Of a DNA stretch of 52,257 nt, positions 8,323 to 49,904 are shown one piece after another. A program made the translations under genes and the position numbers. The DNA comes from an uncultured Gammaproteobacteria bacterium (GTDB lineage Bacteria; Pseudomonadota; Gammaproteobacteria; PS1; Pseudothioglobaceae): the NCBI GenBank assembly GCA_913047325.1, contig CAJWTP010000004.1, positions 1 through 52,257 of the forward strand, read 5' to 3'. The first letter of the stretch is position 1, and the number at the start of each line of letters is the position of its first letter. Below the pieces are notes generated by a model. That model made no database searches. It was not told the DNA's origin and saw nothing but the letters and a program-made list of their open reading frames with translations.

Positions 8323-8330
8323 AAGGTTAA

Positions 8331-10124: not shown

Positions 10125-10163
10125 TACAATCAGAGTTAAATTAAATGATAGTAAAATATCCAC

Positions 10164-10802: not shown

Positions 10803-10808
10803 AAATCA

Positions 10809-16625: not shown

Positions 16626-16665
16626 ATTAAAACTTATGGGAGGTTAACTTAGTCAATATAAGAAT

Positions 16666-29738: not shown

Positions 29739-30022
29739 TTTCCTCGACCCATTGATCTTGAGACATCTTGAGCCAACTCAACATTGATAATCTCATGTGT
29801 TAAAGTGTTTCGAGTAACCAACAACCAGGACTGGTCACCTTGTTCGTGGTACCATAATTCGCGGTTATCACCTGCAATGTTTTCCCTAATATATTGATAC
29901 TGATGGAAATCATCAGCCACAGTCCTGGACTCCCAGTCTGGTCTATCAATGAGATCAGCGGAACCTAGATAAACAAACTCCTCAGAATCTCTAGGGCCTA
30001 ATAATGGATGGTTTATTATCAT
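29735..30022 (-). CDS. soxD: Sarcosine oxidase-like delta subunit lacking zinc cysteines
   Basis: The 95-residue length and the ending LWYHEQGDQSWLLVTRNT identify SoxD. The family binds zinc through Cys6, Cys9, His59 and Cys63. Here the start reads MIINHPLLGPRD, so both N-terminal cysteines of the usual CPxCG motif are gone, and position 63 is Asp. His59 remains. SoxD has a structural role in the tetramer, so this subunit has probably lost zinc without losing its place in the complex. It follows soxB by 12 bp and overlaps soxA. Confidence 0.88.
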   Translation of the reverse strand: MIINHPLLGPRDSEEFVYLGSADLIDRPDWESRTVADDFHQYQYIRENIAGDNRELWYHEQGDQSWLLVTRNTLTHEIINVELAQDVSRSMGRGK

Positions 30023-30034
30023 CTTGCTGCCTCT

Positions 30035-31300: not shown

Positions 31301-32641
31301 TTAGCTCCAAGGATAAGGGCTATTTGAAACTGGATGTAATTTGCCTTCTTTAAAGCGACTAAATCTGAATGGTTCCAAAAGATCTTGTTTTTCACCCATC
31401 AACTCTTCAGCAACAAGGCAACCTAGACCTATCATTTTGTAGCCATGGTTACTATCGGCAATAATAGTAACATTATTATGAAAGGTATCAATTACTGGGA
31501 AGCTATCAGCTGTAAAGCAGCCAATACCGCCAGAAGGCTCCTTATGGTACTTTGGCATTGTGCCCTCGAATCTCTTGTGGCAATGTGCAAGAGCTGAGAC
31601 CCACATGTGAGCAAATTCTGGACCTGAAACGAATTCTGGACTTGAAGGGCCATAAGGGTCAATCGCCACATCTTCTGCTGGCTTCTTAATTTCATAAGGA
31701 GCGGCACCACCCTGAACACCACCAAAATGCCAGTCAGGTTTGTAATATATTCCCCACATTTGATCTGTAATAAGAGAGCCATCAACTGTCGAGTATAGAG
31801 GAGCATCTGTGTCGACATGCAGAACAGGAGGCATCTTGCCGTCATTGGTTTGAAGTATCTCAGGATCTACACGTAAAACACCTTCTTCCAACTGCCAAAA
31901 ACGCCACATATCGACATCATTATGAACATTACCTTCGAGATCTTTTACCTCAATATGTGCTGGAAGATCTAGCATTTTCCAAAAATCTATAACCCATGGA
32001 CCCGCACCAATAACAACACTTTCACAACCAACTGTACCTAGGTTAGTTTCGACTGCGGTCACGGTATCAGTATCATCTTTGGTAAAACCAGTAACTTCAA
32101 CACCGGTGATAATTCTTACTCCCAAATCTTCAACTTTTTTAGCTAATCCATACATCGCTTTTGTGTTATTCGAGTAGCCACCTTTTTTCTCATGAAGGAC
32201 TGATGTTATGCCTTCAGCTTGCCAGTCATCAAACATGTTAAGCATGTATTCACGCGACTCTTCCTCTCCTTCAATGAACACGCTTTCATATCCAATTGCT
32301 TGCTGTTCTGAATGGATTTGCTTCACATCTTCACGCATACTTTCAGGTGAAATTTGCATATAGCCAACCGGATGGTAGCTAAAAGATTCAGGGTCGCTCT
32401 CCCAAACGCTTACAGAGTGCGCCATTAATTTGCGCATTGCTGGTTGAAAGTAGTTATTACGAACAACGCCACACGCAATACCAGTAGCGCCAGCTGATAT
32501 TCCAGCTTTGTCTAGAATAATTACGTTATCCTTAACTCTTTCGCCCCTGGCGGTTAATATTTCTGCTAGACGCCATGCTGTTGATAATCCGTGTATACCG
32601 GCACCAACGATTACGTATTTGGCTTGATCTGGAAATGACAT
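31301..32641 (-). CDS. FAD-dependent DAO-family oxidoreductase, second demethylase candidate
   Basis: The 446 residues form a DAO-type flavoprotein with FAD motif VIVGAGIHGLSTAW (residues 10-23), IACGVVRNNYFQPAM and the C-terminal SNHGYKMIGLGCLVAEEL. It is a divergent relative of soxB. At the position of the covalent-FMN histidine it has Asn159 (GGYSNNTKAMYG), so it cannot be the FMN-carrying beta subunit. It may act on dimethylglycine or another N-methyl amine, or serve as an alternative subunit. It is first in the operon and has a good ribosome-binding site (GAGGAG, 7 nt before ATG). Confidence 0.85.
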   Translation of the reverse strand: MSFPDQAKYVIVGAGIHGLSTAWRLAEILTARGERVKDNVIILDKAGISAGATGIACGVVRNNYFQPAMRKLMAHSVSVWESDPESFSYHPVGYMQISPESMREDVKQIHSEQQAIGYESVFIEGEEESREYMLNMFDDWQAEGITSVLHEKKGGYSNNTKAMYGLAKKVEDLGVRIITGVEVTGFTKDDTDTVTAVETNLGTVGCESVVIGAGPWVIDFWKMLDLPAHIEVKDLEGNVHNDVDMWRFWQLEEGVLRVDPEILQTNDGKMPPVLHVDTDAPLYSTVDGSLITDQMWGIYYKPDWHFGGVQGGAAPYEIKKPAEDVAIDPYGPSSPEFVSGPEFAHMWVSALAHCHKRFEGTMPKYHKEPSGGIGCFTADSFPVIDTFHNNVTIIADSNHGYKMIGLGCLVAEELMGEKQDLLEPFRFSRFKEGKLHPVSNSPYPWS

Positions 32642-33972: not shown

Positions 33973-34087
33973 CAAAATAATTAAATATTTCTTCTTGAAA
34001 TTATTTCATTCATTTACTTGAAAATATTTAAGATTGAGTTATCTTAGTTGATTGTATCATTCCTGTTTTTATCAACACTTTATAGAG

Positions 34088-35245
34088 ATGTCTAAGACTC
34101 CACTGAGCAATATCGATGAAGTCCTAAAACCCATTGAAAAAGCAAAAGGCTTGCCAAACGAGCACTATACAAGCGATGCCGTATTTAATGAGGAAAGGCA
34201 GGCTGTTTTGTTTAATAACTGGTCAGCGATTGGTTTTGGTAAAGATATACCTGAACCGGGTGATTCTAAGCCGATAAGTTTCGTTGACATGCCACTAATC
34301 ATCGTTCGTAATGATGATGGCGCGATTAATGTATTTCAAAATACCTGTCGCCATCGCGGCATGATCCTAATAGACAAACCCACCAAACTTACTAACGTTA
34401 TTCGCTGCCCATATCATAGCTGGTGCTATACCCTAAATGGTGAACTTTGTGCAACACCTATGGTTGGGGGCACTGAAAGTAATAATCATGAAGCTATAAA
34501 ATATGAAGAGCTTGGTCTTTATAAAATTAAATCTTATGTTTGGCAAGATATAATTTTTGTTAATATTTCTGGTAATGCACCTGAGTTTGCTGAGTATTCT
34601 GCAAAGGCATTAAATCGATGGGCTGAATTTGATAAGCCAATTTATTATGGCGGAGAAGAGTCACACTTTAAGCTAGAAATTAAAACAAACTGGAAGTTAG
34701 CAATTGAAAACTATTGTGAAAGCTATCACCTTCCTTTTGTTCATCCAGGGCTTAACGATAACTCAAAAATTGAAGATCATTACCATATCGAAGAGCCAGG
34801 TCGTTTTTCTGGCCAGGGGTCATATGTTTACAATCAAATCAAAACAGAAAATGGCGACACCTTTTCTGACTTTGAGGGACTTTCAAGTAAATGGGATAGT
34901 GGCAGTGAATATATTGCACTCTACCCAAACGTACTATTAGGAGTCCATAGGGATCATATATTTTCCATTATTGTAGAGCCAATCTCTACCGAAAAGTCGA
35001 TTGAACATGTATCAATATACTATGCCAAAAGGCCAGACGAAATGTCAAATCTAAAAAGCCTTATGACATCTAATGCAAAATTTTGGAAGTCAGTATTTTT
35101 GGAAGATGTCTTTGTGGTTGAAGGTATGCAAAGAGGTAGAAAAGGCTTGATGTTTGATGGTGGAAAATTTTCACCAGCAATGGACAGCCCTACCCATTGC
35201 TTTCATCAATGGGTAGCACAACAAGTTAAGAATTTCAGGTCTTAA
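34088..35245 (+). CDS. Rieske non-heme iron oxygenase, alpha subunit
   Basis: With the ATG at 34088 the product has 385 residues. The Rieske [2Fe-2S] ligands are CRHRG (Cys87, His89) and CPYHSW (Cys107, His110). The mononuclear iron site appears as NWKLAIENYCESYHLPFVHPG with His214 and His219. The family includes choline monooxygenase, glycine betaine monooxygenase GbcA and stachydrine demethylase, so oxidative N-demethylation of betaine or a similar compound is likely. No reductase gene is adjacent. A TTG at 34052 could add 12 residues but is less likely. Confidence 0.85.
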   Translation: MSKTPLSNIDEVLKPIEKAKGLPNEHYTSDAVFNEERQAVLFNNWSAIGFGKDIPEPGDSKPISFVDMPLIIVRNDDGAINVFQNTCRHRGMILIDKPTKLTNVIRCPYHSWCYTLNGELCATPMVGGTESNNHEAIKYEELGLYKIKSYVWQDIIFVNISGNAPEFAEYSAKALNRWAEFDKPIYYGGEESHFKLEIKTNWKLAIENYCESYHLPFVHPGLNDNSKIEDHYHIEEPGRFSGQGSYVYNQIKTENGDTFSDFEGLSSKWDSGSEYIALYPNVLLGVHRDHIFSIIVEPISTEKSIEHVSIYYAKRPDEMSNLKSLMTSNAKFWKSVFLEDVFVVEGMQRGRKGLMFDGGKFSPAMDSPTHCFHQWVAQQVKNFRS

Positions 35246-35268
35246 ATAAGCTGTATTTTCTGCTTATT
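35245..35268. terminator. Small hairpin between convergent Rieske and folD genes
   Basis: A 7-bp stem AATAAGC/GCTTATT with a 10-nt loop fills the 21-bp gap and overlaps both stop codons. It is AT-rich and lacks a good T-tract, so it is a weak candidate for a shared terminator. Confidence 0.35.
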
Positions 35269-36130
35269 AATTATTTGATGTGTCCTCTTCTAGTCGCCTA
35301 GAGTTTTCCTTGTAGGCTACTAATGTATTTTCTAGAAGTGTGGCTATTGTCATCGGTCCTACACCGCCAGGGACAGGAGAAATCGCAAGCGCCTTATCTT
35401 TTATTGCATCAAAGTCGACATCACCAGTCAGCTTACCGTTTGCGAGGCGGTTAATTCCTACATCAATTACAACAGCTCCCTCTTTGACCCAATCCTCTTT
35501 AACCAAGTGGGTAACGCCAGCAGCCGCAACAATCACGTCAGCAGTTCTAACCTTCTCAACAATATCTTTAGTATCCTTATGACAAATCTGAACCGTAGCG
35601 CCAGCATTTAGCAATTCCATTGACATAGGCCTACCAACAATATTAGAAGCGCCAATAATGACGCAGTCTTTGCCCTTTAGGTCATAATCTAGTGTTGCCA
35701 ACATACTCATAACCCCTTTCGGAGTGCAGGGCCTTATAAAGGGCTTGTTTTGCATCAATTTCCCAACGTTTTCACTACTAAACCCATCAACATCCTTCTC
35801 AGGTCTGATTGCCTCAATAATCGAGTTAGAATCGATATGCGCTGGCAAAGGTAATTGCACCAAGATTCCATCTATACTTTTATTTGCATTAAGTCGATGA
35901 ATTTCTGAAAGCAGCTCTTCCTGGGTTATATTAGCAGACTTATGGAGCTGGTCGGAGTAGAATCCGACCTCGACACATGCCCGTGATTTATTTTTTATAT
36001 AGATTTCGGAGGCTGGGTCATCACCCACCAAAATAACTGCCAGTCCTGGTGGACGTGAACATTTTTTTACCTCCTTTGTTATTGCATGTCTTAACTCTTT
36101 TGCAATCTTTTTTCCATCAATTATTGTCAT
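35267..36130 (-). CDS. folD: Methylenetetrahydrofolate dehydrogenase / cyclohydrolase
   Basis: The 287-residue FolD has the family motifs VGDDPASEIYIKNKSRACVEVGF (active-site lysine within YIKNK), ILVQLPLPAHID, PCTPKGVMSML, IIGASNIVGRPM and ISPVPGGVGPMTIATL. It converts 5,10-methylene-THF to 10-formyl-THF. In this island it would take up the C1 units released by folate-linked demethylation of sarcosine or related amines. A ribosome-binding site AGGAG precedes the ATG. Confidence 0.96.
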   Translation of the reverse strand: MTIIDGKKIAKELRHAITKEVKKCSRPPGLAVILVGDDPASEIYIKNKSRACVEVGFYSDQLHKSANITQEELLSEIHRLNANKSIDGILVQLPLPAHIDSNSIIEAIRPEKDVDGFSSENVGKLMQNKPFIRPCTPKGVMSMLATLDYDLKGKDCVIIGASNIVGRPMSMELLNAGATVQICHKDTKDIVEKVRTADVIVAAAGVTHLVKEDWVKEGAVVIDVGINRLANGKLTGDVDFDAIKDKALAISPVPGGVGPMTIATLLENTLVAYKENSRRLEEDTSNN

Positions 36131-36323: not shown

Positions 36324-38735
36324 TTAATTAATCCCTAATAACTTTCTTCTTCTTGATGCCCAAGTCTGAATTAGATGATCAACTGTCAAGCCGATAGATG
36401 CGACACAAAGCCCGAGCAATAGTCCGTTACCGATTCCTTGTTTATCTGATAAGGCTTTTATAATAAATTGCCCCAAATCTTCGGTGCCAATGAAAGCTCC
36501 AATAATAACCATAAATAGAGCAAATATAACGGTCTGGTTTACTCCTAGCATAATATGAGGAAAGGCTAGGGGTAATTCAATCTTAACCCATCTCTGTATC
36601 CGACTTACACCCGACATTGAGCCTGCATCTTGCAAGTCTTCTGGCACGCTATTAAGACCTTCCACTGTATAACGGGTAGCAGGAATGGTGGCATAGATAA
36701 TAACTGCAATTAAAACGGTTGTGTCAGTTACTCCAAAAAGTATCATAACCGGAATCAGATAAACAAACGATGGAAAGGTTTGAAAGGTATCGCACAGCAA
36801 TAAAATAACCTTTGAAGCTAATTTATTTTGAGCGCATAAAGAACCAGCGGTTATACCAATAATTGCCGACGCAATAACTCCAAAACTTGCCATATAGGCT
36901 GTAATTAGAGCTCTATCCCACCACTCCAGAAGAGCAATAAATAGCAAACACAAGCCAACAATTAAGGCAGATCTAATTCCACCAACAATGTAGCCAATAC
37001 CCATCACTAAAAAAAATGTTGCGCTAACAGGCATCGACAAATATGACTCTCTCATTGGTAGAAGTATATCTACAATTAACCATTTATTAAAATCCTGCAA
37101 ACTAAAGAAAAAGTAGTCTAGAAACCAATCAATCCCACCCTGCAACATAGGTTCTAAAGTAACGCCTTTAGTGTGAGGTATTAAATATAAATAATTGATA
37201 CCGCCTTTAAAAATGAAAGTGCCAATGTAAGACAAAACAATACCTATCAATAAAATAACACCAAAAAGTAGTGACCATTTATGGCGCAGCATAAAAGGAA
37301 GGTCAGCAAAATAGTCAGTCTGCTTATTCGCCCAAGCCATAGACAATTTATCTAAAACCACTGCAATTATTACAATACACAGTCCTAATTCCAGAGCTTG
37401 TCCAACTCTCAGCTGATTAAGTGCAAGCAACAAATTAAAGCCCAAACCCTTTGCACCAATAAACGAGGCAATCACTGCCATTGCTAGGCACTGCATGATT
37501 ACTTGGTTTACGCCAATTAAAATGTCACGCCTTGCAGTAGGAATCAAAACCTTAAACATCAATTGATAATTGTGGCATCCGCTCATCATGCCCGCATCAA
37601 GAACCTCTGGCGAAACTCTTTTAAGCCCCAAAAGGGTTAGACGTATCATCGGTGGCGTCGCAAAAATTATTGTTGCAATGGCGCCAGCCTGATCACCAAT
37701 TCCAAAAAACACCATAACAGGCACTAGATAAGAAAAATGAGGCAACGACTGAGCTATGTTAAGCAACGGCGCTAATACCACTTCTACTGATTTACTTTTG
37801 TATGACCAAACCCCAAAAAACAATCCCAAAATAACAGAAACTGGTGCTGCAATCAATACAAATGAGAGCGTTTCCATAGAAGGCTCCCATTGCCCAAAAA
37901 TGGAAATATACAAAGTTCCAAAACATGCTAACATCGCAAGCCCTCTACCCTGAAGAGCATAACCCAGCATGGTTGTAGTTGCACAAACCACAGTCCAAGG
38001 CAAGGCAGGCCAATAAGCCCACTCATTTTCACTGAGCCAATCCCAACTCGTAAAAGCAACAATGGTTTTAACTCCACCCAAAAGAATTTCACGAATAAGT
38101 GCTATACAAAAAAGTAAAGCAGCTGAAATACCTCTGGTGATTTGAAAAATTAAAGCCTTGTCTTCAAATTCCTCAATATCTGGGTCATAAACTTGAATTG
38201 GAAACCACTCATACATCAAAAAGTTCCCATAGTCAGTCACTATTATTGGCAGGTCCCAAAAACTGCTTGTCCCTGGTTCGCCAAAAAACCAAGTAAACAA
38301 AGTTGGCGCTACAAAAAAACCTCCGAAAATAGAGATAATGACATAGAGGAATAACTTAGTCCAGTATCTCTTAAACCAATCGATTAGAGAAATCTTTGAT
38401 GACTGTATTTTTGAATAGTAGTTATTAAATATCAATCCAGCCATAATTAACAAGGTTGTCAATATATATACTATGGAGGTACTGACTACCAGATTGAGAA
38501 AATTTAACTCGGGTATACGTACGAATTGCGGCGGCAACTGGCCACTCAAAATCATACTGACTGACTCAGAAAATCCTGTAACAGGAACTATTTGACCTTT
38601 TTCAACCGCTTTAGTAAAGCCATCTCTAACATCAATAATTTCACTATATTGGCCGGTCATTAAAATAAGGACTACAAAACCGATTAGAACAACGCCTAAT
38701 TGTACTAATTTAGGGTTATTTTTTAGGTAGTCCAT
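36324..38735 (-). CDS. proW: Glycine betaine/proline-type ABC permease, fused double permease
   Basis: At 803 residues this is about twice the normal length of ProW. Two complete binding-protein-dependent permease domains are on one chain. The first EAA loop reads GLKRVSPEVLDAGMMSGC (about 375-395) and the second GLNSVPEDLQDAGSMSGV (about 685-705), each with SLPHFSYLVPVMVFFG or TFPSFVYLIPVMILFG just before. Long hydrophobic segments lie at the N-terminus and between the domains. It probably imports glycine betaine with ProV and ProX. It is 12 bp downstream of proV, so both are in one transcript. Confidence 0.9.
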   Translation of the reverse strand: MDYLKNNPKLVQLGVVLIGFVVLILMTGQYSEIIDVRDGFTKAVEKGQIVPVTGFSESVSMILSGQLPPQFVRIPELNFLNLVVSTSIVYILTTLLIMAGLIFNNYYSKIQSSKISLIDWFKRYWTKLFLYVIISIFGGFFVAPTLFTWFFGEPGTSSFWDLPIIVTDYGNFLMYEWFPIQVYDPDIEEFEDKALIFQITRGISAALLFCIALIREILLGGVKTIVAFTSWDWLSENEWAYWPALPWTVVCATTTMLGYALQGRGLAMLACFGTLYISIFGQWEPSMETLSFVLIAAPVSVILGLFFGVWSYKSKSVEVVLAPLLNIAQSLPHFSYLVPVMVFFGIGDQAGAIATIIFATPPMIRLTLLGLKRVSPEVLDAGMMSGCHNYQLMFKVLIPTARRDILIGVNQVIMQCLAMAVIASFIGAKGLGFNLLLALNQLRVGQALELGLCIVIIAVVLDKLSMAWANKQTDYFADLPFMLRHKWSLLFGVILLIGIVLSYIGTFIFKGGINYLYLIPHTKGVTLEPMLQGGIDWFLDYFFFSLQDFNKWLIVDILLPMRESYLSMPVSATFFLVMGIGYIVGGIRSALIVGLCLLFIALLEWWDRALITAYMASFGVIASAIIGITAGSLCAQNKLASKVILLLCDTFQTFPSFVYLIPVMILFGVTDTTVLIAVIIYATIPATRYTVEGLNSVPEDLQDAGSMSGVSRIQRWVKIELPLAFPHIMLGVNQTVIFALFMVIIGAFIGTEDLGQFIIKALSDKQGIGNGLLLGLCVASIGLTVDHLIQTWASRRRKLLGIN

Positions 38736-38747
38736 ACTTTTCTTAAT

Positions 38748-39815
38748 CTAATCGTTTGTTTCTTCTTTATTGTCACCAAACAACACATGAATGACTTTGG
38801 AATTATGTATGACGCCAACAATTTTGTCGTTCTCATCTACAACAGCTATAGGCTTCTGTTCATTAAGCACCGCTTCGGCAACAGTCTCAATAATTGCATC
38901 CTTAGACACTTTTAAATCAGCTAGTTCTTCGGAACTATCTAATGGCTCCATTACCGTTTCAATCTTAAGCACCTTTTCTCTTGGCACCTCCTCGGTAAAT
39001 TTTCGAACATACTCGGTTGCTGGATTAAGAACGATATTGGCTGGCGTATCTAATTGCTCGATAATTCCATCTTTCATGATTGCTATTCGATCAGCGAGTC
39101 TAAGTGCTTCATCAAAATCGTGTGTTACAAATAAAATCGTTTTATTCAAAACTCCCTGAAGTCTAAGGAATTCATCTTGCATCTCTTTACGTATTAATGG
39201 ATCTAGGGCCGAGAAAGGCTCATCCAAGAACCAAATGTCGGGCTCAACAGCCAATGAACGAGCAATACCTACACGTTGCTGCTGACCACCAGATAATTCT
39301 CTTGGAAAATAATTTTCACGCCCATCAAGACCAACAAGCTCAACCATTTCCATGGCTCTTATCATACTATCCTTTGTGCTATTGCCTTTAACCTGAAGAG
39401 GAAAGGCGATATTTTCTAATACAGTTTTGTGCGGTAATAGGGCAAAACTTTGAAACACCATACCCATTTTATTGCGTCTAAGTTCAATAAGTTCTTTGCC
39501 ACTCAAGGCTAATAAATCTTCACCTTCGATAAATATCTGACCTGCAGTTGTGTCAGTTAATCTTGATATGCATCGAAGTAGTGTTGATTTACCTGAGCCA
39601 GACAAACCCATAATCACCAACATTTCACCATGATGAACTTCGAATGATGCATTATTAACACCTACTACACAGCCTGCATCCTGAAACTCTTTAGCGTCAA
39701 CTTTACCATTAGAGCTTTGAAGCATTTTTTCTGCATTCTCACCAAAAATTTTATAGACAGACTCGCACTTAACGACTGGCTGCTTTTGCTTGGATGAAGT
39801 ATCTTGAGAAGGCAT
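38748..39815 (-). CDS. proV: Glycine betaine/proline ABC transporter ATP-binding protein
   Basis: The 355-residue ATPase has the ProV/OpuAA layout: an N-terminal extension (VYKIFGENAEKM), Walker A GLSGSGKST (about 70-78), signature LSGGQQQRVGIARSLA, Walker B IWFLDEPFSALDP and a C-terminal CBS-like segment ending with IAVVDENDKIVGVIHNS. CBS pairs in this family sense ionic strength, but only about one module seems present. It is upstream of proW in the same minus-strand operon. Confidence 0.93.
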   Translation of the reverse strand: MPSQDTSSKQKQPVVKCESVYKIFGENAEKMLQSSNGKVDAKEFQDAGCVVGVNNASFEVHHGEMLVIMGLSGSGKSTLLRCISRLTDTTAGQIFIEGEDLLALSGKELIELRRNKMGMVFQSFALLPHKTVLENIAFPLQVKGNSTKDSMIRAMEMVELVGLDGRENYFPRELSGGQQQRVGIARSLAVEPDIWFLDEPFSALDPLIRKEMQDEFLRLQGVLNKTILFVTHDFDEALRLADRIAIMKDGIIEQLDTPANIVLNPATEYVRKFTEEVPREKVLKIETVMEPLDSSEELADLKVSKDAIIETVAEAVLNEQKPIAVVDENDKIVGVIHNSKVIHVLFGDNKEETND

Positions 39816-40038: not shown

Positions 40039-40989
40039 TTACATACCTACTCCAGTCATAGCTCTCCAAGTATCTTCATTGTCAGCTAGCCATTTTGTAG
40101 CAGCGTCCTTATGACTCATTCCTTCTAGGTCAACAAGTGCGGCCATAGAACCAATTTGACCTGCATCGAACGACATTCTAGAGAACGCCATGTAAGCCGC
40201 TGGATGAGTTTTAGGGAACTTATAGTTCGCCGCTTTCTTCAACCAACCTTTTGGCGATCCACACTTACTGTCACCACCATCTTGTTTTCTGCAACCCAGA
40301 TAATACTCAGGCCACTCAATGAAAACAAAACCGGCACCATCAGTGAAGTTTGGAGTCCAGTTAAACGTCAATGTAGCACGTCCTTCTTTTTCAGCAGCTA
40401 CGTGGTCTGCCCAAAGAGCGTCGGCACTACCAGCAAACTTAACAACCCAATTGTCGCCTAAAAGTGCTTCTACACGATCTGGATATTCTGTACCGTGCCA
40501 GCTTTGAGGTCCTTCTAAGATACGACCTTTTCCGCCAGAATCTACTGTTGCAAACACTTCATAACAATCAATCAATGCTTTATAGTCTGGAAGTCCAGGG
40601 CACATATTGTTGTCAACTACCCATTGTGGAACTCCAACCTCTTCAAGAGTCAATGCAGCATGCGTTCCAGCGTCAATTAAGCCACCTTTAGCCATTGCAG
40701 CATAGAATGAAGCACCGAAAGTGGACTGCCAAACCTCGTGAGAGATAGTTACGTCACCATTACGAATGGATTCATAAACACCTTGAGTGTCAGCAGAAAC
40801 ATATTCAACATTGTTACCCATGTCTTCAAAAATTCCACCAATAACGTAGGCCATTACCACTTGGCTAGACCAGTTATGTGTTGGAATTACAATTGGCTTT
40901 GTCGAGTCAGCCGCAAGCGTTTGACCAGAGACAGAAGCTAAAGTCATGACTAAAGCAGCTGCAGCTACTTTACTTGTAAACTTTTTCAT
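40039..40989 (-). CDS. proX: Glycine betaine/proline ABC transporter substrate-binding protein
   Basis: The 316 residues start with a signal peptide (about 1-26, ending SGQTLAAD), so the protein is periplasmic. The OpuAC/ProX-like features are ADSTKPIVIPTHNWSSQVVMAYV, GDVTISHEVWQST and the aromatic-rich TFNWTPNFTDGAGFVFIEWPEYY, consistent with a cage for trimethylammonium groups. It has a strong ribosome-binding site (AAGGAG 6 nt before ATG) and its own promoter region, so high-level expression is expected. Confidence 0.92.
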   Translation of the reverse strand: MKKFTSKVAAAALVMTLASVSGQTLAADSTKPIVIPTHNWSSQVVMAYVIGGIFEDMGNNVEYVSADTQGVYESIRNGDVTISHEVWQSTFGASFYAAMAKGGLIDAGTHAALTLEEVGVPQWVVDNNMCPGLPDYKALIDCYEVFATVDSGGKGRILEGPQSWHGTEYPDRVEALLGDNWVVKFAGSADALWADHVAAEKEGRATLTFNWTPNFTDGAGFVFIEWPEYYLGCRKQDGGDSKCGSPKGWLKKAANYKFPKTHPAAYMAFSRMSFDAGQIGSMAALVDLEGMSHKDAATKWLADNEDTWRAMTGVGM

Positions 40990-41156: not shown

Positions 41157-43460
41157 TTACATCCTAACTCGAGTTTTTTCAGGATCATAAAATGGAAAGC
41201 GAACAACAGTTGCCGCTAGGCGCTTCTGATGCCCATCTAACTTTCCTACCTCAACCTCAGTGCCAATTTCTGACTCCTTGACTGAAATTCTACACAAGGC
41301 AATGTTCTTTTTTAGTATTGGTGAACGTGTTGCGCTTGTAATAATTCCTACCTGTTGCTTCCCAATAAATACACCATCTTCATGGAGAGCAACTTCGTTT
41401 GATTCTAATTCTAACCCAACTAAGACCCTTTGTGGAGATTTCTTCCTAAGAATTAATGATTCTTTACCAGAAAAATCTTCATCTTTCGTTTCTAATGGCA
41501 CAGTAAACGATATGCCTGCCTCGAATGGATCAGTCTGATCACAAAATTCATAGCCAGCAAAAATTAGGCCAGACTCAATACGAAGCATATCCAGAGCATT
41601 TAAGCCTAGAGGACATATATTAAACTCTTTACCAGCCTCGGCTATTGCATCCCAAACGGCCTCGCAGTCATTCGGATGTGCAAAAACCTCATATCCCAAT
41701 TCTCCCGAGTAACCAGTCCTAGAAACCATAACCGGAATTCCAAATTCACCTCCTATGCGTCCAATTGTAAATCGGAACCATTTAAGGTCATCAACATCGG
41801 GTTGGAGCCTTGGTGTCCAAATAATTTTTGCTAACGTCTCGCGACTCTTTGGCCCCTGTACTGCTACGTTGTGTAATTGATCTGTGGAAGATTTAATCCA
41901 TACATCTAGATTCCTGTCTTTGGCAATTTTACGAAGTAGCTTTCCGCCATCGTCTGAACCGCCAATCCAGCGAAAGTTATTTTCACAGAGACGGTACAAA
42001 GTGCCATCATCTACCATACAGCCGTTTTCATAGCACATAGCAGAATAAACAACTTGTCCAACCGCAAGTTTGCGAACGTCTCTGGTTATAGCATACTGCA
42101 TCAATGCTTCAGCATCTTGACCATAAACTTCAAACTTTCTTAGCGGCGCAAGATCAATCATTGCAACCCCTTCACGGCACTGCCAATATTCCTTTATGGC
42201 ACCTAAGTTTGTATAGTCTAGTGGCAACCAATAGCCATTGTAGTTGTCAAAATTCTTAGTTAATTTTGAAGTGTTTTTATGAAAACCGGTTTCTTTAGTC
42301 ATAGTTGGTATTGATTTAGGGTCAGGTCTAAAAGCCGTCGCTGGTGAAAAATTGTTACTATTATCGTATATCCTAACATGGATATCGGTTGGATTCCAAT
42401 TGTTGGCAGAGGATGTATCGTCCGGGCAAGCTGATGACACACAAACCAGATCATCTAAAGCTTTAAATAAAACGTAGTCGCCGGGTCTTGACCAAGAAAC
42501 ATCCGCAGTCAGTGCATGGCACTCTTCAATTGCCGTATTAAAAAATAAATTAACTGCAACCCAGTTCTTGCGCGGTGCAATGCCATATTCGGCAAGAGAC
42601 TTGTTGAAGTTGTCATTGCAATTGATATGACCTGGAAAACCTCTATCGTCATAGTATTTAGCATTGCAAGCCAAACCAAATGTGTCATGCCTGCAAACCG
42701 TATCGCGAACAACTTCAACCAACGGCACTGAATTTTGATTATAAAACTTGTCATGACACCCTGGTTCAGGATAACTCTTAAGCATGTGTGACCTGGTCAC
42801 GGTTGGATCGAGATTTAACTCCCTATTGTTTTTCAAGTCTTCAACTAAAAATGCTTGGAAATCCGAGCATTGATGACCTTCAACATCAATGATTTGTATG
42901 TATTCGCCCGCTTTGACCTTGTAAGCCATTGCTGAACTGTTCTTAACCCTAATTTCCTTTTTTGTTTTTGCGAGAGGCTCTGGTAGTCTTTCTGACGGCT
43001 TTGTTGGATTTGCACGAGAAACATTTATCAGAATCTCTGTTGGTGAATCTTGTTCATCGACAATCATCGGGCCACCCTTTGCATCAAAAACACACCAAGC
43101 ATCCTTGTCAATAACAAAAGATTGACGGGAATCAGCTCGGCTTTTATCTTTGAAGAGCTCAATGCCACTTAATTTATTGGTATTGATTTTGTTATGACTC
43201 AAGATAGCTTTAAGCATATCAGAGCAGTCTGCTGAAACTATTTCTGTTGAAGCACTACTGGGCTTACTGTTCCACTCAAGAGAATTATTTATCATAGAAC
43301 CTTTTGAGTCAAAGGCCAAGAGATTACATTGCTGGTCACCTTCAACATCAACAATTTCAACAGAATCACCATGTTGTAATTCTATTGAAACGGCTTGACC
43401 GCCATATATCTGGTAGGTTTCTATATCGCCAGCATAACTGGCAGATTGTATATTACTCAA
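41157..43460 (-). CDS. Tandem DUF1989 - GcvT fusion (candidate folate-linked demethylase)
   Basis: The 767-residue protein has three parts: a DUF1989 repeat (about 15-150) with VDVEGDQQCNLLAF, a second DUF1989 repeat (about 170-375) with IDVEGHQCSDFQAF and a Cys/His-rich segment (256-281: CRHD...LACN...GHINCNDN), and a GcvT aminomethyltransferase domain (about 405-767) with SRTGYSGELGYEVF. DUF1989 proteins include the subunits of carboxyguanidine deiminase; GcvT domains move methyl or methylene groups to folate. The first DUF1989 lacks the Cys/His segment and seems degenerate. A substrate is not known. It is transcribed toward proX, 167 bp before it. Confidence 0.85.
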   Translation of the reverse strand: MSNIQSASYAGDIETYQIYGGQAVSIELQHGDSVEIVDVEGDQQCNLLAFDSKGSMINNSLEWNSKPSSASTEIVSADCSDMLKAILSHNKINTNKLSGIELFKDKSRADSRQSFVIDKDAWCVFDAKGGPMIVDEQDSPTEILINVSRANPTKPSERLPEPLAKTKKEIRVKNSSAMAYKVKAGEYIQIIDVEGHQCSDFQAFLVEDLKNNRELNLDPTVTRSHMLKSYPEPGCHDKFYNQNSVPLVEVVRDTVCRHDTFGLACNAKYYDDRGFPGHINCNDNFNKSLAEYGIAPRKNWVAVNLFFNTAIEECHALTADVSWSRPGDYVLFKALDDLVCVSSACPDDTSSANNWNPTDIHVRIYDNSNNFSPATAFRPDPKSIPTMTKETGFHKNTSKLTKNFDNYNGYWLPLDYTNLGAIKEYWQCREGVAMIDLAPLRKFEVYGQDAEALMQYAITRDVRKLAVGQVVYSAMCYENGCMVDDGTLYRLCENNFRWIGGSDDGGKLLRKIAKDRNLDVWIKSSTDQLHNVAVQGPKSRETLAKIIWTPRLQPDVDDLKWFRFTIGRIGGEFGIPVMVSRTGYSGELGYEVFAHPNDCEAVWDAIAEAGKEFNICPLGLNALDMLRIESGLIFAGYEFCDQTDPFEAGISFTVPLETKDEDFSGKESLILRKKSPQRVLVGLELESNEVALHEDGVFIGKQQVGIITSATRSPILKKNIALCRISVKESEIGTEVEVGKLDGHQKRLAATVVRFPFYDPEKTRVRM

Positions 43461-43758: not shown

Positions 43759-44154
43759 TTACCAGTACTTAAATTTAGAGTAAGCATTATTTAAATCAAC
43801 GATTGGATGACCTTCAGACATTTGGAACTTGATCAACAATTCACGTGCAATCATGTCACGTTCTTGCTGGTTATTAGGTAGATCAATCGTGTCAGGAATT
43901 GTTACCCAGCCATTTATGTTTCTATCAAAAACTGCGGCACGATCTTCTTCGTAACCCATATGAACATCTTCCAACCAATTAAGATCTTTCCAGCCCATCT
44001 TGTCAATGTATTTTTGCAAAAAAGGTGTAATATACTTAAGATCTGGAACTAAGTTCACATCGTATCTATAACCGATATGTTGACCAATTTCCTGTTCACG
44101 AACGGTGTCTAGACCGTCGCTGTCAATGAAATACCCTTCTTCATTATTACTCAT
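43759..44154 (-). CDS. Conserved-looking protein of unknown function (131 aa)
   Basis: I do not recognise a family for these 131 residues. It is soluble with no signal peptide or cysteine, acidic at the N-terminus (SNNEEGYFIDSDGLDTV), with a central EDVHMGYEEDRAAVFDRNINGWVTIPD and a C-terminal aromatic tail (YSKFKYW). It starts 13 bp after the FMN-domain gene and is the last gene of the operon, so it may be a small subunit or assembly factor of that enzyme. Confidence 0.75.
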   Translation of the reverse strand: MSNNEEGYFIDSDGLDTVREQEIGQHIGYRYDVNLVPDLKYITPFLQKYIDKMGWKDLNWLEDVHMGYEEDRAAVFDRNINGWVTIPDTIDLPNNQQERDMIARELLIKFQMSEGHPIVDLNNAYSKFKYW

Positions 44155-44167
44155 GATTACTCCTTAT

Positions 44168-45505
44168 CTAAAAACGTGTCATGTCAGGCCGACCAACTGT
44201 ATGCTGAGAACCTGCAATAGGCACCTGTGCACAAGCTGAAGCCTCCATAGTCAAAGCGGCTATATCTTCTGGCTCTAATGAATGTACATTAGTCTTTCCA
44301 CAAGCTCGCGCCATCATTTGGCATTCAATTGCTAGTGTATGTAAGAAGTTATATACACGCTGTGAAGCTGCATCCGGATCTAGACGCTTTCTAAGCTCAG
44401 GGTCTTGAGTCGCAACTCCAACAGTACAGCGACCAGTATGACAGTGATAGCATTCACCAGGCTTAACACCCATCTCACCCTCAAAATCGGCTTCTGGAAT
44501 ATCTCTGTTACAGTTAAGCGCCATCATTACGGAATGACCAATCGCAACCGCATCCGCACCAAGTGCAACAGCTTTTGCTACATCACCACCATTACGGATA
44601 CCACCTGCATATACTAAAGAAATTCTACCAGTCATGCCAACATCATCAATCGCTCTACGAGCCTGACGAATCGCAGCGATACCTGGAACGCCAGTTTCTT
44701 CAGTTGCAAGGTGAGGCCCTGCACCAGTACCGCCTTCCATGCCGTCAATATAGATACTATCACAGCCAGTTTTAGCGGCCATACGGACGTCATCGTATAC
44801 ACGCGCAGCACCTAACTTTAATTGAATTGGAATTTGACCGTCTGTCGCTTCACGGATTTCTTCAATTTTAAGCGCTAGATCGTCTGGGCCTAGCCAGTCA
44901 GGGTGTCTTGCAGGTGAGCGTTGGTCAATACCAGCCGGCAGTGAACGCATCTCTGCAACCTGGTCTGTTACTTTTTGGCCCATCAAGTGTCCACCTAAGC
45001 CGACCTTACAACCCTGACCGATAAAAAATTCAACACCATCAGCTAAACGCAGGTGGTTAGGATTAAAGCCGTAACGAGACTGGATACACTGATAGAGCCA
45101 CTTACTAGAATAACGCCTCTCATCAGGAATCATACCACCTTCACCAGAACAAGTCGCCGTACCAGCCATAGTAGCACCACGAGCCAAAGCTGTTTTCGCT
45201 TCATAACTCAGGGCACCGAAACTCATACCAGTTACATAAATAGGTATGTCTAGCTCTAAAGGTCTCTTAGCCTCAGGACCAATAATGGTCTTGGTTAAAC
45301 ATTTTTCCCTGTAACCCTCGATAACAAAACGGGTTAGCGTACCTGGCATAAAAGTCAAATCATCCCATGTTGGAATCTTTTTGAATAGAGAGAAACCTCT
45401 CATTCTGTAACGACCCAAATCTGACTTGATGTGAATATCGTTCATCACTTCCTTTGGAAAGATAAAACTTTTACCTAAATTGTATTTATCGTCTTTTTCA
45501 CTCAT
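44168..45505 (-). CDS. Glutamate-synthase FMN-domain protein (GlxD / MgsC type)
   Basis: The 445 residues correspond to the FMN-binding barrel of GltB. Motifs: VTGMSFGALSYEAKTALARGA, GEGGMIPDERRY, QIPIQLKLGAAR-like region, YIDGMEGGTGAGPH, and an iron-sulphur loop CYHCHTGRCTVGVATQDPEL. It would take ammonia or methylamine-type groups delivered by its partner subunits and add them to 2-oxoglutarate. As in GlxBCD/MgsABC, this domain is a separate gene. It lies between the GXGXG-domain gene and the 131-residue gene. Confidence 0.88.
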   Translation of the reverse strand: MSEKDDKYNLGKSFIFPKEVMNDIHIKSDLGRYRMRGFSLFKKIPTWDDLTFMPGTLTRFVIEGYREKCLTKTIIGPEAKRPLELDIPIYVTGMSFGALSYEAKTALARGATMAGTATCSGEGGMIPDERRYSSKWLYQCIQSRYGFNPNHLRLADGVEFFIGQGCKVGLGGHLMGQKVTDQVAEMRSLPAGIDQRSPARHPDWLGPDDLALKIEEIREATDGQIPIQLKLGAARVYDDVRMAAKTGCDSIYIDGMEGGTGAGPHLATEETGVPGIAAIRQARRAIDDVGMTGRISLVYAGGIRNGGDVAKAVALGADAVAIGHSVMMALNCNRDIPEADFEGEMGVKPGECYHCHTGRCTVGVATQDPELRKRLDPDAASQRVYNFLHTLAIECQMMARACGKTNVHSLEPEDIAALTMEASACAQVPIAGSQHTVGRPDMTRF

Positions 45506-45541
45506 AATATTTCCTTGTATTAATTTAGTTAAAAAGTATTA

Positions 45542-46384
45542 TTACAGAACTATTTTCTTTTCATGTGGCTCTAGATTATCGTAGTTCCACAATTGCTTAC
45601 CCGAAACGAACTTCTGCATTTTCTCAACCCCTTTAGGCGTTTTAATGCCATAAAGGTCAAGTTTTGAAGTTAGGTAACGGATATCTAGTTCAGTCATTTC
45701 ACCTGGTACACAGTCAACACCTAGCTCTTCAACCTCACCACCAATATAAATAGTTCCGTCATACATTGAGTCACCCAGGTTCATCCCAGCATCGCCACAA
45801 ACAATCATACGGCCACGCTGCATCATAAAGCCAGAAAAAGCGCCTGTATTACCACCAACCAGTATTGTCCCTCCTTTTTGGTCGATTCCAGTGCGCGCAC
45901 CAACACTACCCCTACATACAAGGTCTCCACCTCGAATAGCTGCACCAAATGTGGAACCAGCATTACCCTCGATAACGACGGTACCCGCCATCATGTTTTC
46001 TGCACACGACCAACCAACTCGACCCTTAATATGAACATTCGGTCCATCAATTAAGCCGCAACCGAAGTAGCCTAGACTGTCTGAAAAAGTTAGGTTTAGA
46101 CGATTCAAAATACCAACACCAACGCCGTGGCGTGACATAGGGTTGTCAACCGTAATGTCTCCTATACCTTTTTCCATTAACGTTCTAATTTCGCCATTGA
46201 TCTCTCTTGGAGTCATCTCGAGTGCATCGATTGTTGCACTTTTGCTTGTGTCTACGTCAAATGAATGAAAATAAGTTAGATTTTCACTTTCATCAGCAGA
46301 GAAAAAACGTTGCTGAGTACGCCCTTTTAATTGCTCTTCATGAAGCCCCATTTCATGAGACTTATCTTTATTTAATGTTGCCAT
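45542..46384 (-). CDS. Glutamate-synthase GXGXG-domain protein (GlxC / MgsB type)
   Basis: The 280-residue protein has the beta-helix GXGXG repeat pattern of the GltB C-terminal domain. Repeats are YFGCGLIDGPNVHIKGRVGW, GTVVIEGNAGSTFGAAIRGG, GTILVGGNTGAFSGFMMQRG and GRMIVCGDAGMNLGDSMYDG. This domain has a structural role between the amidotransferase and FMN domains. It is about 50 residues longer than I remember for MgsB, mostly at the N-terminus. Its start overlaps the amidotransferase gene by 13 bp. Confidence 0.87.
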   Translation of the reverse strand: MATLNKDKSHEMGLHEEQLKGRTQQRFFSADESENLTYFHSFDVDTSKSATIDALEMTPREINGEIRTLMEKGIGDITVDNPMSRHGVGVGILNRLNLTFSDSLGYFGCGLIDGPNVHIKGRVGWSCAENMMAGTVVIEGNAGSTFGAAIRGGDLVCRGSVGARTGIDQKGGTILVGGNTGAFSGFMMQRGRMIVCGDAGMNLGDSMYDGTIYIGGEVEELGVDCVPGEMTELDIRYLTSKLDLYGIKTPKGVEKMQKFVSGKQLWNYDNLEPHEKKIVL

Positions 46385-47310
46385 ACTTTTACCTCTCCAT
46401 GATATGGGTCAAATGTATCAATAGGATGATCAAACAACTTTCTAATTGCAACTTCTTCTGAAGCAAGAGCAATCATATCATCGCCTTCATATACAACCAT
46501 TGGTTTGGCGGCCATAACATCCTTTGCCATGCCAAGTTCGTCTTTTGTTGCCACCAGGTAGGTGAAAACGCCGTCAAGAAATTCAACAGAGTCTCTCATT
46601 GCCGTTTCCAAATCAACACCCTCGCTTATTTTGTCGGCAATATATACCGCGATAAGTTCTGAATCACAGTCAGATGAGAAGCGATGCCCTTTGCGCTCAA
46701 GTGCGCGTCTGTTCGTCCAGTAATTGGTCAGCTGACCGTTATGAACAACAGCAACGTCATTGAATGGGTACGCCCAATATGGGTGCGCAGAACGAATATC
46801 TACATCTGACTCTGTTGCCATCCGTGTGTGTCCGATACCGTGGGTACCGTTAAAACTGTTAAGACCATACTGTTCAGAAACAATCGCAGCGTCTCCAAGA
46901 TCTTTGACAAGCTCAAGTGAATTCCCGATAGACAAAATTTCAACACCCTCAATATCCTCAATAAAGTCTGCCAATTTTTGCATATCACCCGAGAATTGAA
47001 TCTCATAACGATGAGCATATTCAGTTGGACTTTCTTTGCTAACAACCTTAACTCCTAGTTCAGCGAGGCGTGAGTCAATTGTTGCCAAGCGCGACTCGAT
47101 GGCAGCATGTATATCGTAACTTCCTTCTAGGTCAGCTGCTTCAGCAACTTTAAAGCGTAAAACCTGATTGCCGTTATCTGGTCCATACATTGCATAACCA
47201 GTTGAATCCGGACCTCTGTGTTTCAAAGCCTGCAACATTGATGTCATTTGTTCACCAATATTTACGCTTTTCCCGCCTTGTTTATGAATAATTCCTGCTA
47301 TTCCGCACAT
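46372..47310 (-). CDS. Class II glutamine amidotransferase (GlxB / MgsA type)
   Basis: The 312 residues form an Ntn-type GATase II domain. Cys2 of MCGIAGIIHKQGG is the nucleophile after Met removal, LKHRGPDSTGYAMYG and GIGHTRMATESDVDIRSAHPY follow, then VVHNGQLTNYWTNRR and DCDSELIAVYIADKI. In the N-methylglutamate pathway such a subunit releases methylamine from gamma-glutamylmethylamide. In general the family frees ammonia from glutamine. It is 75 bp downstream of the glutamine-synthetase-like gene. Confidence 0.88.
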   Translation of the reverse strand: MCGIAGIIHKQGGKSVNIGEQMTSMLQALKHRGPDSTGYAMYGPDNGNQVLRFKVAEAADLEGSYDIHAAIESRLATIDSRLAELGVKVVSKESPTEYAHRYEIQFSGDMQKLADFIEDIEGVEILSIGNSLELVKDLGDAAIVSEQYGLNSFNGTHGIGHTRMATESDVDIRSAHPYWAYPFNDVAVVHNGQLTNYWTNRRALERKGHRFSSDCDSELIAVYIADKISEGVDLETAMRDSVEFLDGVFTYLVATKDELGMAKDVMAAKPMVVYEGDDMIALASEEVAIRKLFDHPIDTFDPYHGEVKVWQH

Positions 47311-47385
47311 AAATAAATCTCCTATCCTAATATTTGCCCACCTAGGAGGGTGGGTACTCTAAATAAAAACCTAAATCTAGCTAGC

Positions 47386-48864
47386 CTATGGCAAGCAATC
47401 CAAGTAAGTCTCAACATCCCAATCTGTAACCGTATGGTTAAATCTTTCCCACTCGTCATTCTTGTAGTGGTGGTAGACTTTATACATTTCATCGGGCATT
47501 GCAGATTTGATTACTTCATCGTTTGCAAGTTCATTCATCGCATCACCTAATGACATAGGCAACTTCTTAACATCTTTACCTGCTTCCAAAGCTTCATAGA
47601 TATTGCGCTCTTCAGGCTCACCCGCATCGATGTTATTATCAATACCGTCACCCATTGCCTTTAACAAGGCTGAGCCCATCAGGTAAGGATTCACCATTGA
47701 GTCAACTGAGCGGTATTCGAAACGACCTGGGGCAGAAACACGAAGCGCACAGGTACGGTTTTGGTAACCCCAGTCAGCAAAAATTGGCGCCCAGAAACCG
47801 GTATCCCAAAGACGACGATATGAATTTACTGTAGAAGAGCCAATTGAGGTAAGTGCTGGTAAATGCTTGATAACGCCACCAATCGAATTTAGGCCAATAG
47901 GGCCAGGCTTAACTTCGTCAATTGAAGGATCTGGCATGAACGTGTTTTCGCCACCCTCTTTGTAAGTGTAGCATCCTGACATACCTGGAAGTTCTCCATC
48001 AATAGAGGCAATCTCTGGATGGAATACATCCTTGCCACCTTTCCACAAAGACATATTATGGTGACAACCTGAAGCCGAAACACCCATAAATGGCTTACTC
48101 ATAAAGCAGGCAATCAAACCAAACTCACGTGCAACCTGCGCACAAATTTGACGATAAGTCGTCAGACGGTCTGCATTACGCAAGACATCATCGAACTGAG
48201 TATTAAGCTCAAGTTGGCCCGGAGCATCTTCGTGGTCACCCTGAATAATGTCAAGACCCATTTGCTCTGAATATTCAATAACCTTCATAAATACAGGACG
48301 TAGCTCTTCAAACTGGTCAATATGGTAACAGTTAGGCTTGGTAACACCACCGTTTGGCCTACCATCTTCACCTCGCTTAAGCCACATCATCTCTGGCTCT
48401 GTGCCGCAGCGCATATCTAAACCATACTGGTCTTGGAACTCCTTATGTTGCCTATAAAGGTTTCCGCGACAATCAGAAGTTAAAGCTGCACCCGGGTTTT
48501 CACGCTCCTCACGGTTTCTATAAAGTCTACAGAAAACGCGAGCGACGCGCTTATCCCATGGCAGTTGACAAAAGGTTTCAGGATCTGCTATACCGACAAG
48601 CTCAGAAGCCTCAGGTCCATAACCGATATAATGGCCATGACGGTCAACAAATAAATTAGCTGTTGAACCGTATACCAATTGAAATCCTTTTTCAGCCAAT
48701 CGTTCCCAGTGACGACCAGGAATACCTTTACCGACAATACGACCGGTAACTGAAACAAATTGATAATATACATATTTAATACCCAAAGCATCGATCTTAG
48801 CTTTAACTTCCTTTACTAGCTTGTCGCGTCCAGGTGCGTTAACGTGCTGTTCTAAATCTGTCAT
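47386..48864 (-). CDS. Glutamine synthetase-like ligase (GlnT / GmaS candidate)
   Basis: The 492-residue enzyme belongs to the glutamine synthetase superfamily. GTEPEMMWL and HEDAPGQLELN carry metal-binding acids, SASGCHHNMSLWK is the ATP-loop region, NSYRRL and NRTCALRVSAPGRFEYRSVD the nucleotide and glutamate sites. No adenylylation tyrosine motif of classic GlnA is evident. Together with the next three genes it matches the set gmaS-mgsABC, so gamma-glutamylmethylamide synthesis is one option. It is about 50 residues longer than the GmaS proteins I recall. A good SD (GGAGAG) precedes the ATG. Confidence 0.85.
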   Translation of the reverse strand: MTDLEQHVNAPGRDKLVKEVKAKIDALGIKYVYYQFVSVTGRIVGKGIPGRHWERLAEKGFQLVYGSTANLFVDRHGHYIGYGPEASELVGIADPETFCQLPWDKRVARVFCRLYRNREERENPGAALTSDCRGNLYRQHKEFQDQYGLDMRCGTEPEMMWLKRGEDGRPNGGVTKPNCYHIDQFEELRPVFMKVIEYSEQMGLDIIQGDHEDAPGQLELNTQFDDVLRNADRLTTYRQICAQVAREFGLIACFMSKPFMGVSASGCHHNMSLWKGGKDVFHPEIASIDGELPGMSGCYTYKEGGENTFMPDPSIDEVKPGPIGLNSIGGVIKHLPALTSIGSSTVNSYRRLWDTGFWAPIFADWGYQNRTCALRVSAPGRFEYRSVDSMVNPYLMGSALLKAMGDGIDNNIDAGEPEERNIYEALEAGKDVKKLPMSLGDAMNELANDEVIKSAMPDEMYKVYHHYKNDEWERFNHTVTDWDVETYLDCLP

Positions 48865-49271: not shown

Positions 49272-49904
49272 TCAAGCTATACTGTTTGAACAAATAACGG
49301 CTAAAAACTGGCATTCAGTGGAAAGAATTTTTTTAGGTCCATGAGGTTTATCTGAATCAAAGTATAGTGAGTCGCCCTCTGTAAAGTGATAAACCTTAGT
49401 ACCATAATAATAATCCATCTCACCTTTAAGCATATAGATAAACTCAACACCTTGATGTTGAAACTCCGGGAATTCATAATCCTTAGATGAAACTGTAATA
49501 AGGCAAGGCTCTACCTTCAATGGACCACCAACAGTATGCCCTAACAATTGATAGTGTCTTTTTTTATGTGTCCCACCCCGCTCAATTGTTAGACCAGCGC
49601 CTGACTTGATAAAGGTTGGTTCTACTTCTTTATCGTGTTGCTTGAATAGCGTGGTTATTGTGATATTTAGGGCATGACAAATTAATTGTATTGTTCTAAG
49701 TGAAGAACTGATTTGTCCATTTTCGATTTTTGAAAGCATGCTAGCCGAAAGTTGCGATTGTCTCGACAATTGCTGAAGCGTTACACCGGCAGCTTTTCGA
49801 GCTAACCTTACCTGTTTACCAATTGACGCCTCGAGATGCTTATCGGTACCAAAACTTGGCAACTGCTTATCAATTATCGATACGCCTTTTTTCGGTGGTG
49901 TCAT
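49272..49904 (-). CDS. XRE-cupin transcriptional regulator
   Basis: The 210-residue protein has an N-terminal XRE helix-turn-helix (about 28-85: VRLARKAAGVTLQQLSRQSQ, then MLSKIENGQISSSLRTIQ) and a C-terminal cupin domain (about 130-205) with GVEFIYMLKGEMDYYYG and GDSLYFDSDKPHGPK. Such regulators often sit beside glutamine-synthetase-like genes for amine use (PuuR-like) and sense a pathway compound through the cupin. It lies upstream of the glutamine-synthetase-like operon and is transcribed in the same direction, with about 400 bp between. Confidence 0.88.
   Translation of the reverse strand: MTPPKKGVSIIDKQLPSFGTDKHLEASIGKQVRLARKAAGVTLQQLSRQSQLSASMLSKIENGQISSSLRTIQLICHALNITITTLFKQHDKEVEPTFIKSGAGLTIERGGTHKKRHYQLLGHTVGGPLKVEPCLITVSSKDYEFPEFQHQGVEFIYMLKGEMDYYYGTKVYHFTEGDSLYFDSDKPHGPKKILSTECQFLAVICSNSIA

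Follow-up and report, generated by a model that had tools for sequence, protein, structure and literature searches.

A stretch of 52,257 nucleotides from an uncultured gammaproteobacterium of the family Pseudothioglobaceae (contig CAJWTP010000004.1; the whole stretch is called the window below) carries an operon of five genes encoding a glutamine-synthetase-like ligase, the three catalytic parts of a split glutamate synthase and a protein of 131 amino acids (aa). The operon very probably specifies a GmaS-type alkylamine ligase with a split synthase for the catabolism of methylated amines, distinct from the known GmaS/Mgs system. Going one step further, we propose, at a probability of roughly 55%, that it constitutes a second, divergent gamma-glutamylamide pathway that runs in parallel to GmaS-MgsABC and is dedicated to dimethylamine (DMA) from trimethylamine N-oxide (TMAO). 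The proposal builds on the genes, their order and recurrence, the conservation of the amine pocket, the coexistence with GmaS, the association with the TMAO demethylase Tdm and the lack of Dmm.

Results

The first gene of the operon, which lies on the minus strand, encodes the 492-aa GmaS-type ligase (47386-48864), a Gln-synt_C protein (276 bits) that scores 305.8 bits against the GmaS model TIGR03105, below the cut-off of 469.6 bits. It is followed by a 312-aa class-II glutamine amidotransferase-like subunit with the N-terminus MCGIAG (46372-47310; GATase_6/GATase_7), a 280-aa GXGXG subunit (45542-46384; PF01493, 50.3 bits, above cut-off), a 445-aa flavin mononucleotide (FMN)/glutamate-synthase-like subunit harbouring a CxxCxxxxC motif (44168-45505; PF01645, Glu_synthase, 302.8 bits) and the 131-aa protein (43759-44154), which matches no Pfam or NCBIfam model. 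The first four genes had been predicted at this place and in this order, and we confirmed them as open and intact minus-strand frames with Pfam scores above cut-off; the amidotransferase and GXGXG genes share a 13-base overlap. The succession amidotransferase-GXGXG-FMN is that of MgsABC. In the direction of transcription, the row reads XRE-cupin regulator, ligase, amidotransferase, GXGXG, FMN, 131-aa protein, Tdm, TmoX-like protein, ATP-binding cassette (ABC) ATPase, double permease and FolD. Tdm, the TmoX-like protein and the 131-aa gene did not figure in the original prediction.

The module coexists with the canonical system in the same genomes. The one-contig genome G007 holds a window-type operon (L159) and, separately, a canonical mgsABC-gmaS set (L158) with an amidotransferase of 301 aa, a GXGXG subunit of 230 aa, an FMN subunit of 440 aa and a ligase of 437 aa. 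This canonical ligase reaches 675 bits against TIGR03105 and 635 bits against RhGmaS (7cql) over near full length, and is 64% identical to the latter. As anticipated from the sequence, the window ligase and GXGXG subunit are each about 50 residues longer than their G007 canonical counterparts (492 vs 437 and 280 vs 230 aa). Among 67 genomes carrying a window-type ligase, 53 encode a canonical-type ligase above the TIGR03105 cut-off (52 of 66 distinct genomes, as the genome of L078 duplicates G015), with matches above cut-off spanning 495-687 bits and a best match of at least 643 bits in 51 of the 67. This count, like those for Tdm and PF11927 below, leaves aside the short loci L053, L054, L057, L069, L070, L074, L075, L076, L077, L085, L095, L096, L102 and L109 as well as L034-L049, the window's family being represented by 16 ligase genomes chosen mostly by completeness; the order of the window's genome comprised 83 genomes. 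Contig C68 of the window's own genome bears at its edge a fragment of 135 aa that shares 80% identity with the last part of the G007 GmaS and 36% with the window ligase. Since a canonical-type ligase is already present in 53 of the 67 genomes, a second ligase for monomethylamine (MMA) would be redundant there.

We then compared the active site of the ligase with that of RhGmaS, for which passages of PMC7948447 describe seven residues forming the MMA pocket and a catalytic Arg312. The window ligase retains all seven pocket residues together with Arg312 and the flap Trp300: K30, Y147, Q175, D177, E179, E186, N188, W300 and R312 of RhGmaS correspond to K46, Y180, Q208, D210, E212, E219, N221, W358 and R370, and all are kept in 15 of 15 window-type rows of the alignment (in which 2 of 15 GmaS rows were mis-framed and mismatched at most positions; the tree below was built from re-extracted rows). 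At the flap position, the ligase has Trp, the genome's own GlnA has Glu and its PuuA-like protein has His. The loop FQLVYGSTANLFV, located where glutamine synthetase (GS) binds ammonium, contains no Asp, so that neither the ammonium Asp nor the flap Glu of GlnA is found in the ligase. Although PuuA and GlnA belong to the same Gln-synt_C family, the window pocket is thus of GmaS type and not that of the genome's own PuuA-like protein or GlnA. Near the pocket, Asn is replaced by Gly at position 176 and by Pro at position 182 in all window-type rows, and the ligase has an extra stretch around residues 286-324 relative to GmaS. The AlphaFold2 model of the ligase had a mean predicted local distance difference test (pLDDT) score of 51.7, too low for a comparison of pockets.

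Overall, the window ligase is 29% identical to RhGmaS, against which it scores 157 bits. In the phylogenetic tree, 20 window-type ligases and one sister of 55% identity form a clade of their own (support 100/99), while ten GmaS rows including RhGmaS form a separate clade (98/99) to which the window ligase does not belong. The original prediction had singled out the ligase phylogeny as a check, and clustering with plain GlnA was not seen, the order of the deep branches being unsure because they are long.

The synthase subunits differ from their canonical counterparts as well. The CxxCxxxxC motif, followed by xVG, occurs in 53 of 53 full-length window-type FMN rows and is absent from all five MgsC-like rows beside canonical sets and from the G007 canonical FMN subunit, which sets the window subunit apart from the canonical MgsC rows compared. 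Furthermore, the PF01645 match ends near position 312 in canonical MgsC, whereas it reaches positions 363-368 in GltB and window-type subunits; in the window-type FMN subunit of G090 it extends to 314 only, yet the motif is present. By analogy with glutamate synthase, the cysteines may ligate an iron-sulphur cluster, which would imply an electron path other than that of MgsC. The FMN subunit is 49% and the amidotransferase 32% identical to the respective G007 canonical subunit, and the GXGXG subunit has an N-terminal extension relative to the canonical 230-aa version. A third type of FMN protein, 649-652 aa long and carrying CxxCxxxxC, was seen in L092 (5202-7151) and L098 (277-2235), where its gene adjoins an amidotransferase gene and a gene resembling the XRE-cupin regulator of the window.

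The 131-aa protein probably serves as a subunit with a structural or adaptor role. It has 58 invariant columns across 25 rows and no cysteines; the only Pfam match, seen in 1 of the 25 members, is at chance level. Its predicted structure (pLDDT 74.0; predicted template modelling score 0.65) yielded no Protein Data Bank (PDB) match by Foldseek at E<=0.001 and nothing above Z 2.5 in a second structure search, which does not in itself establish a new fold, and its profile gave a single weak match among PDB sequences (E 0.011).

The co-occurrence of the module was examined with respect to Tdm, encoded directly downstream of the operon (41157-43460, minus strand; 767 aa), which makes DMA and is identified by the equivalog model NF053776 (1121 bits, cut-off 1100). 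As a marker of the known DMA-degrading enzyme Dmm we used PF11927, a haem subunit taken for DmmC from the gene order in L153, where it stands in a row with DmmA-like, DmmB-like, FMO and Tdm genes. In a sample of 397 genomes of the phylum (ligase threshold E<=1e-90), Tdm was found in 28 and the ligase in three, all with Tdm (G000, G090 at 75% and G443 at 55% identity). PF11927 was present in 26 of the 28 Tdm genomes. The two without it, G000 and G090, are also the only two of the 28 with a ligase of at least 75% identity, a coincidence that, with kinship left out of account, has a chance of 1 in 378. Turning to 66 ligase genomes, 54 had a Tdm match (46 above cut-off) and four had PF11927 (53 and four of 65 distinct genomes). 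Neither PF11927 nor an adjacent DmmA-like protein was found in the window's genome (90% complete).

A further comparison covered 80 genomes, 56 with a ligase of at least 75% identity and 24 with Tdm and without the ligase; it left aside G137, G334 and L078 together with 11 genomes closely related to that of the window. DmmA adjacent to PF11927 was found in none of the 56 ligase genomes vs 23 of the 24 others (the exception being G149), the 131-aa gene in 53 of 56 vs none of 24, and an additional SoxB-like gene in 45 of 56 vs one of 24. Among 14 control genomes, PF11927 matched in one, NF053776 in none, TIGR03105 in one, PF22290 in two and PF01645 in 13.

The module is not confined to the window. 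A scan of named genomes returned at least 589 ligase relatives, the best 80 of which were analysed at locus level; their titles include Thioglobus, Thiotrichaceae, Rhodospirillales, Kiloniellaceae, Granulosicoccaceae, SAR324 and others, the nearest named relatives being Candidatus Thioglobus/Pseudothioglobus and SUP05-cluster records. All five genes were above identity thresholds in 48 of the 80 loci, many of which are cut by contig ends; each of these 48 shows an identical gene order on a single strand. A Tdm match was found in 35 of the 80 loci, the SoxB-like gene in 24, and either of them in 54. Recurrent neighbours, named from one scanned representative per cluster or from similarity to a gene of the window, were a GntR regulator (47), AmtB (33), FolD (12) and formate-tetrahydrofolate ligase (7); Tmm was seen above cut-off near the module in L113. 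L083, from a genome without a Tdm match, unites a SoxBDAG complex, the SoxB-like gene and the five-gene operon, and we propose that it could represent the complete route from external DMA.

Several additional features were observed in these loci. In 22 of the 80 loci (e.g. L099, 15234-15830), a gene close to the module encodes a conserved protein of roughly 198 aa, whose L094 member matches no Pfam or NCBIfam model; it was left out of the system because no clear match was found in the window (best E 0.13). Sister ligases of 53-55% identity were not counted as the same system, being situated in other loci. Two of them, about 53% identical, reside on plasmids of Paracoccus sp. TOH and Ruegeria sp. 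SCSIO 43209 (L162 and L163) next to a second glutamine-synthetase gene. Genes for a P450 or an aldehyde dehydrogenase and for glutamine amidotransferase/hydrolase accompany them, and no split synthase is annotated; these loci perhaps specify another gamma-glutamyl amine pathway.

In the window, the genes following Tdm on the minus strand are consistent with uptake and turnover of TMAO. The TmoX-like binding protein (40039-40989) has as its best PDB match 4xz6 (278 bits, the next match reaching 27 bits), described in passages of PMC8918994 as TmoX of R. pomeroyi. It is followed by a TmoW-like ABC ATPase (38748-39815; TIGR01186, 338.4 bits, cut-off 326.6), a TmoV-like permease (36324-38735; two BPD_transp_1 stretches) and FolD, which oxidises methylene-tetrahydrofolate (35267-36130; PRK10792, 408.8 bits, cut-off 355). 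The permease is of double length, 803 aa as compared with a cluster median of 533 aa in other loci. Further along the same strand are the SoxB-like flavin adenine dinucleotide oxidoreductase ('soxB2'; 31301-32641; DAO domain), which among solved structures is closest to the beta subunit of heterotetrameric sarcosine oxidase and, more weakly, to dimethylglycine dehydrogenase/oxidase, and a SoxBDAG-like complex (26213-31297). In the latter, all four subunits are recognisable, SoxB and SoxA above cut-off (TIGR01373, 656 bits; TIGR01372, 1296.7 bits) and SoxD and SoxG below it (67.6 and 65.2 bits). A Sox-like complex 11 kb from the module had been noted and is real; it is the near end of the extra SoxB-like gene that lies at this distance.

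Upstream of the operon, the minus-strand gene of the XRE-cupin regulator (49272-49904; HTH_3 and Cupin_2) sits between bhmt and the ligase gene in 16 of the 80 loci, and a BHMT gene is also present in the window. A Rieske oxygenase distantly related to GbcA (34052-35245; 112.7 bits, cut-off 670) adjoins a GcvA-like LysR regulator and the SoxB-like gene. Three consecutive EamA-family transporters (14843-17535) next to a Mem_trans transporter (17559-18440) were also noted. GlnA, a PuuA-like protein and a full-length GltB are encoded elsewhere in the window's genome.

Discussion

Because Tdm yields DMA, Dmm was not found and the ligase does not replace GmaS, the ligase is the obvious candidate for the DMA step. 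In the route that we envisage, TmoXWV would import TMAO and Tdm would convert it to DMA and formaldehyde/methylene-tetrahydrofolate. The 492-aa ligase would then join DMA to glutamate at the expense of ATP, giving gamma-glutamyldimethylamide, from which the amidotransferase subunit could free DMA within the complex. The GXGXG and FMN subunits would condense DMA with 2-oxoglutarate, and the resulting iminium would be reduced to N,N-dimethylglutamate with electrons passing through the putative iron-sulphur cluster. Finally, the SoxB-like flavoenzyme might remove one methyl group to yield N-methylglutamate, and SoxBDAG, as an N-methylglutamate or sarcosine dehydrogenase, might remove the last one, leaving glutamate and methylene-tetrahydrofolate for FolD. 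Whether this set of ligase, iron-sulphur synthase, N,N-dimethylglutamate and stepwise flavin demethylation replaces Dmm in many marine TMAO-degrading proteobacteria is a broader claim, to which we would give an even chance.

A number of findings weigh against an assignment to DMA. The pocket residues are those of an MMA-using GmaS, and sequence therefore cannot separate MMA from DMA, while over its whole length the ligase scores higher against glutamine synthetases of known structure (up to 214.7 bits) than against GmaS proteins of known structure (178.9 and 156.7 bits). Moreover, we know of no glutamate-synthase-type enzyme that acts through a secondary amine. With respect to co-occurrence, 14 of the 67 ligase genomes, some of them incomplete, have no TIGR03105 match above cut-off; 12 of 66 have no Tdm match and 4 of 66 do contain a PF11927 protein; 11 of 56 have no SoxB-like gene; and isolated DmmA-domain matches of 25-41 bits occur in 9 of 56, four of them above the 33-bit cut-off and none beside PF11927. 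L107 and L110, from genomes without a Tdm match, hold the ligase without a window-type synthase or 131-aa gene. In these two loci, the ligase genes (8014-9489 and 9989-11464, respectively) adjoin SoxB/SoxA-like genes and a canonical mgsABC-gmaS set, an arrangement that may be a counter-example or a reduced form. In addition, G372, a genome with Dmm and no ligase, has a SoxB-like gene (72% identical) placed with Rieske and LysR homologues (L157) as in the window, and the SoxB-like enzyme may thus belong to another pathway; its place is the weakest link in the proposed route. The compared sets also differ in kinship and assembly quality: most ligase genomes are uncultured marine records, and the comparison group is made up largely of complete genomes from other families. 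The contrast may thus be inflated through kinship and completeness. The complete or near-complete genomes G007, G008 and G090 do show this contrast.

The main rival explanation is a second MMA system, that is, an alternative GmaS-MgsABC, perhaps differing in affinity, redox partner or regulation, that has come under the control of TMAO. Retention of the entire MMA pocket and of the catalytic residues would fit it, as would the ligase genomes without a canonical-type match and the company of canonical mgsABC in L107 and L110. We nevertheless consider it unlikely, given that the canonical-type ligase is already encoded in most ligase genomes, including the one-contig G007 and G008, that we know of no enzyme that would turn the DMA made by Tdm into MMA when Dmm is missing, and that the mutual exclusion with Dmm would be left unexplained. 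For the same reason of coexistence in relatives, we rejected the simple equation of the module with canonical GmaS-MgsABC. The original prediction stands in so far as the pocket and the TMAO cluster point to a GmaS/Mgs-type methylated-amine module and not to a GS; the G007 set and the 53 canonical-type ligases speak against this being the organism's N-methylglutamate synthase, and the remark that the substrate may differ was the better half of that reading.

A different small amine, such as ethylamine, or sarcosine derived from the nearby betaine genes, appears quite improbable. BHMT and the Rieske protein in the window would suit such a substrate, and the sister ligases do occur in other amine-type loci, but BHMT matches were found in only 16 of the 80 loci, all in the order bhmt-xre-ligase, whereas Tdm accompanies the ligase in 54 of 66 genomes. 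An ordinary ammonium-assimilating pair of GS and glutamate synthase in split form is highly implausible and was rejected: though whole-sequence ligase scores favour GS and the FMN subunit keeps the C-terminal Glu_synthase part and CxxCxxxxC unlike canonical MgsC, the ligase has Trp for Glu in the flap and its ammonium loop lacks Asp, and GlnA and GltB are encoded separately in the same genome, so that the module is not needed for ammonia.

Several known systems come close to the module. With GmaS-MgsABC-MgdABCD, the module shares the ligase, class-II amidotransferase, GXGXG and FMN proteins, the amine pocket with its flap Trp, a SoxBDAG-like complex nearby and the methylated-amine context; it differs by the separate ligase clade, the longer GXGXG subunit, the CxxCxxxxC-bearing FMN subunit, the extra 131-aa gene and its coexistence with the canonical set. 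DmmDABC acts on the product of Tdm, the step at which we propose to place the module, and is not homologous to it, being a haem-type oxygenase complex in contrast to an ATP-dependent ligase and a glutamate-synthase-like complex. GltB/GltD has the same three catalytic parts and iron-sulphur-type cysteines in the FMN part, whereas the parts of the window module are on separate genes, in an operon without a GltD-like gene and with its own ligase of non-ammonia type. Split archaeal forms of glutamate synthase likewise consist of these three catalytic parts.

TMAO is an osmolyte of fish. Passages of PMC5520151 state that Thioglobus singularis has tmm and tdm and that dmmDABC is missing from SAR11 and abundant marine Gammaproteobacteria. 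For SAR11, a methylamine route through glnT-glxBCD has been proposed (passages of PMC3160333), and strain HTCC1062 grew on TMAO as sole nitrogen source, with an unknown isoenzyme supposed for the DMA step (passages of PMC8918994, 2022); passages of PMC13390433 retain Dmm as the DMA step. Among the listed results of searches in openly licensed PubMed Central literature, we found no description of a gamma-glutamyldimethylamide/dimethylglutamate pathway or of a second ligase-synthase set. The module may supply the missing route of DMA use where sea bacteria lack the known enzyme. If this is true, the operon could fill the published dmmDABC gap with a named gene set, and a widespread stand-in for Dmm beside Tdm would alter the way in which metagenomes are interpreted with regard to DMA turnover.

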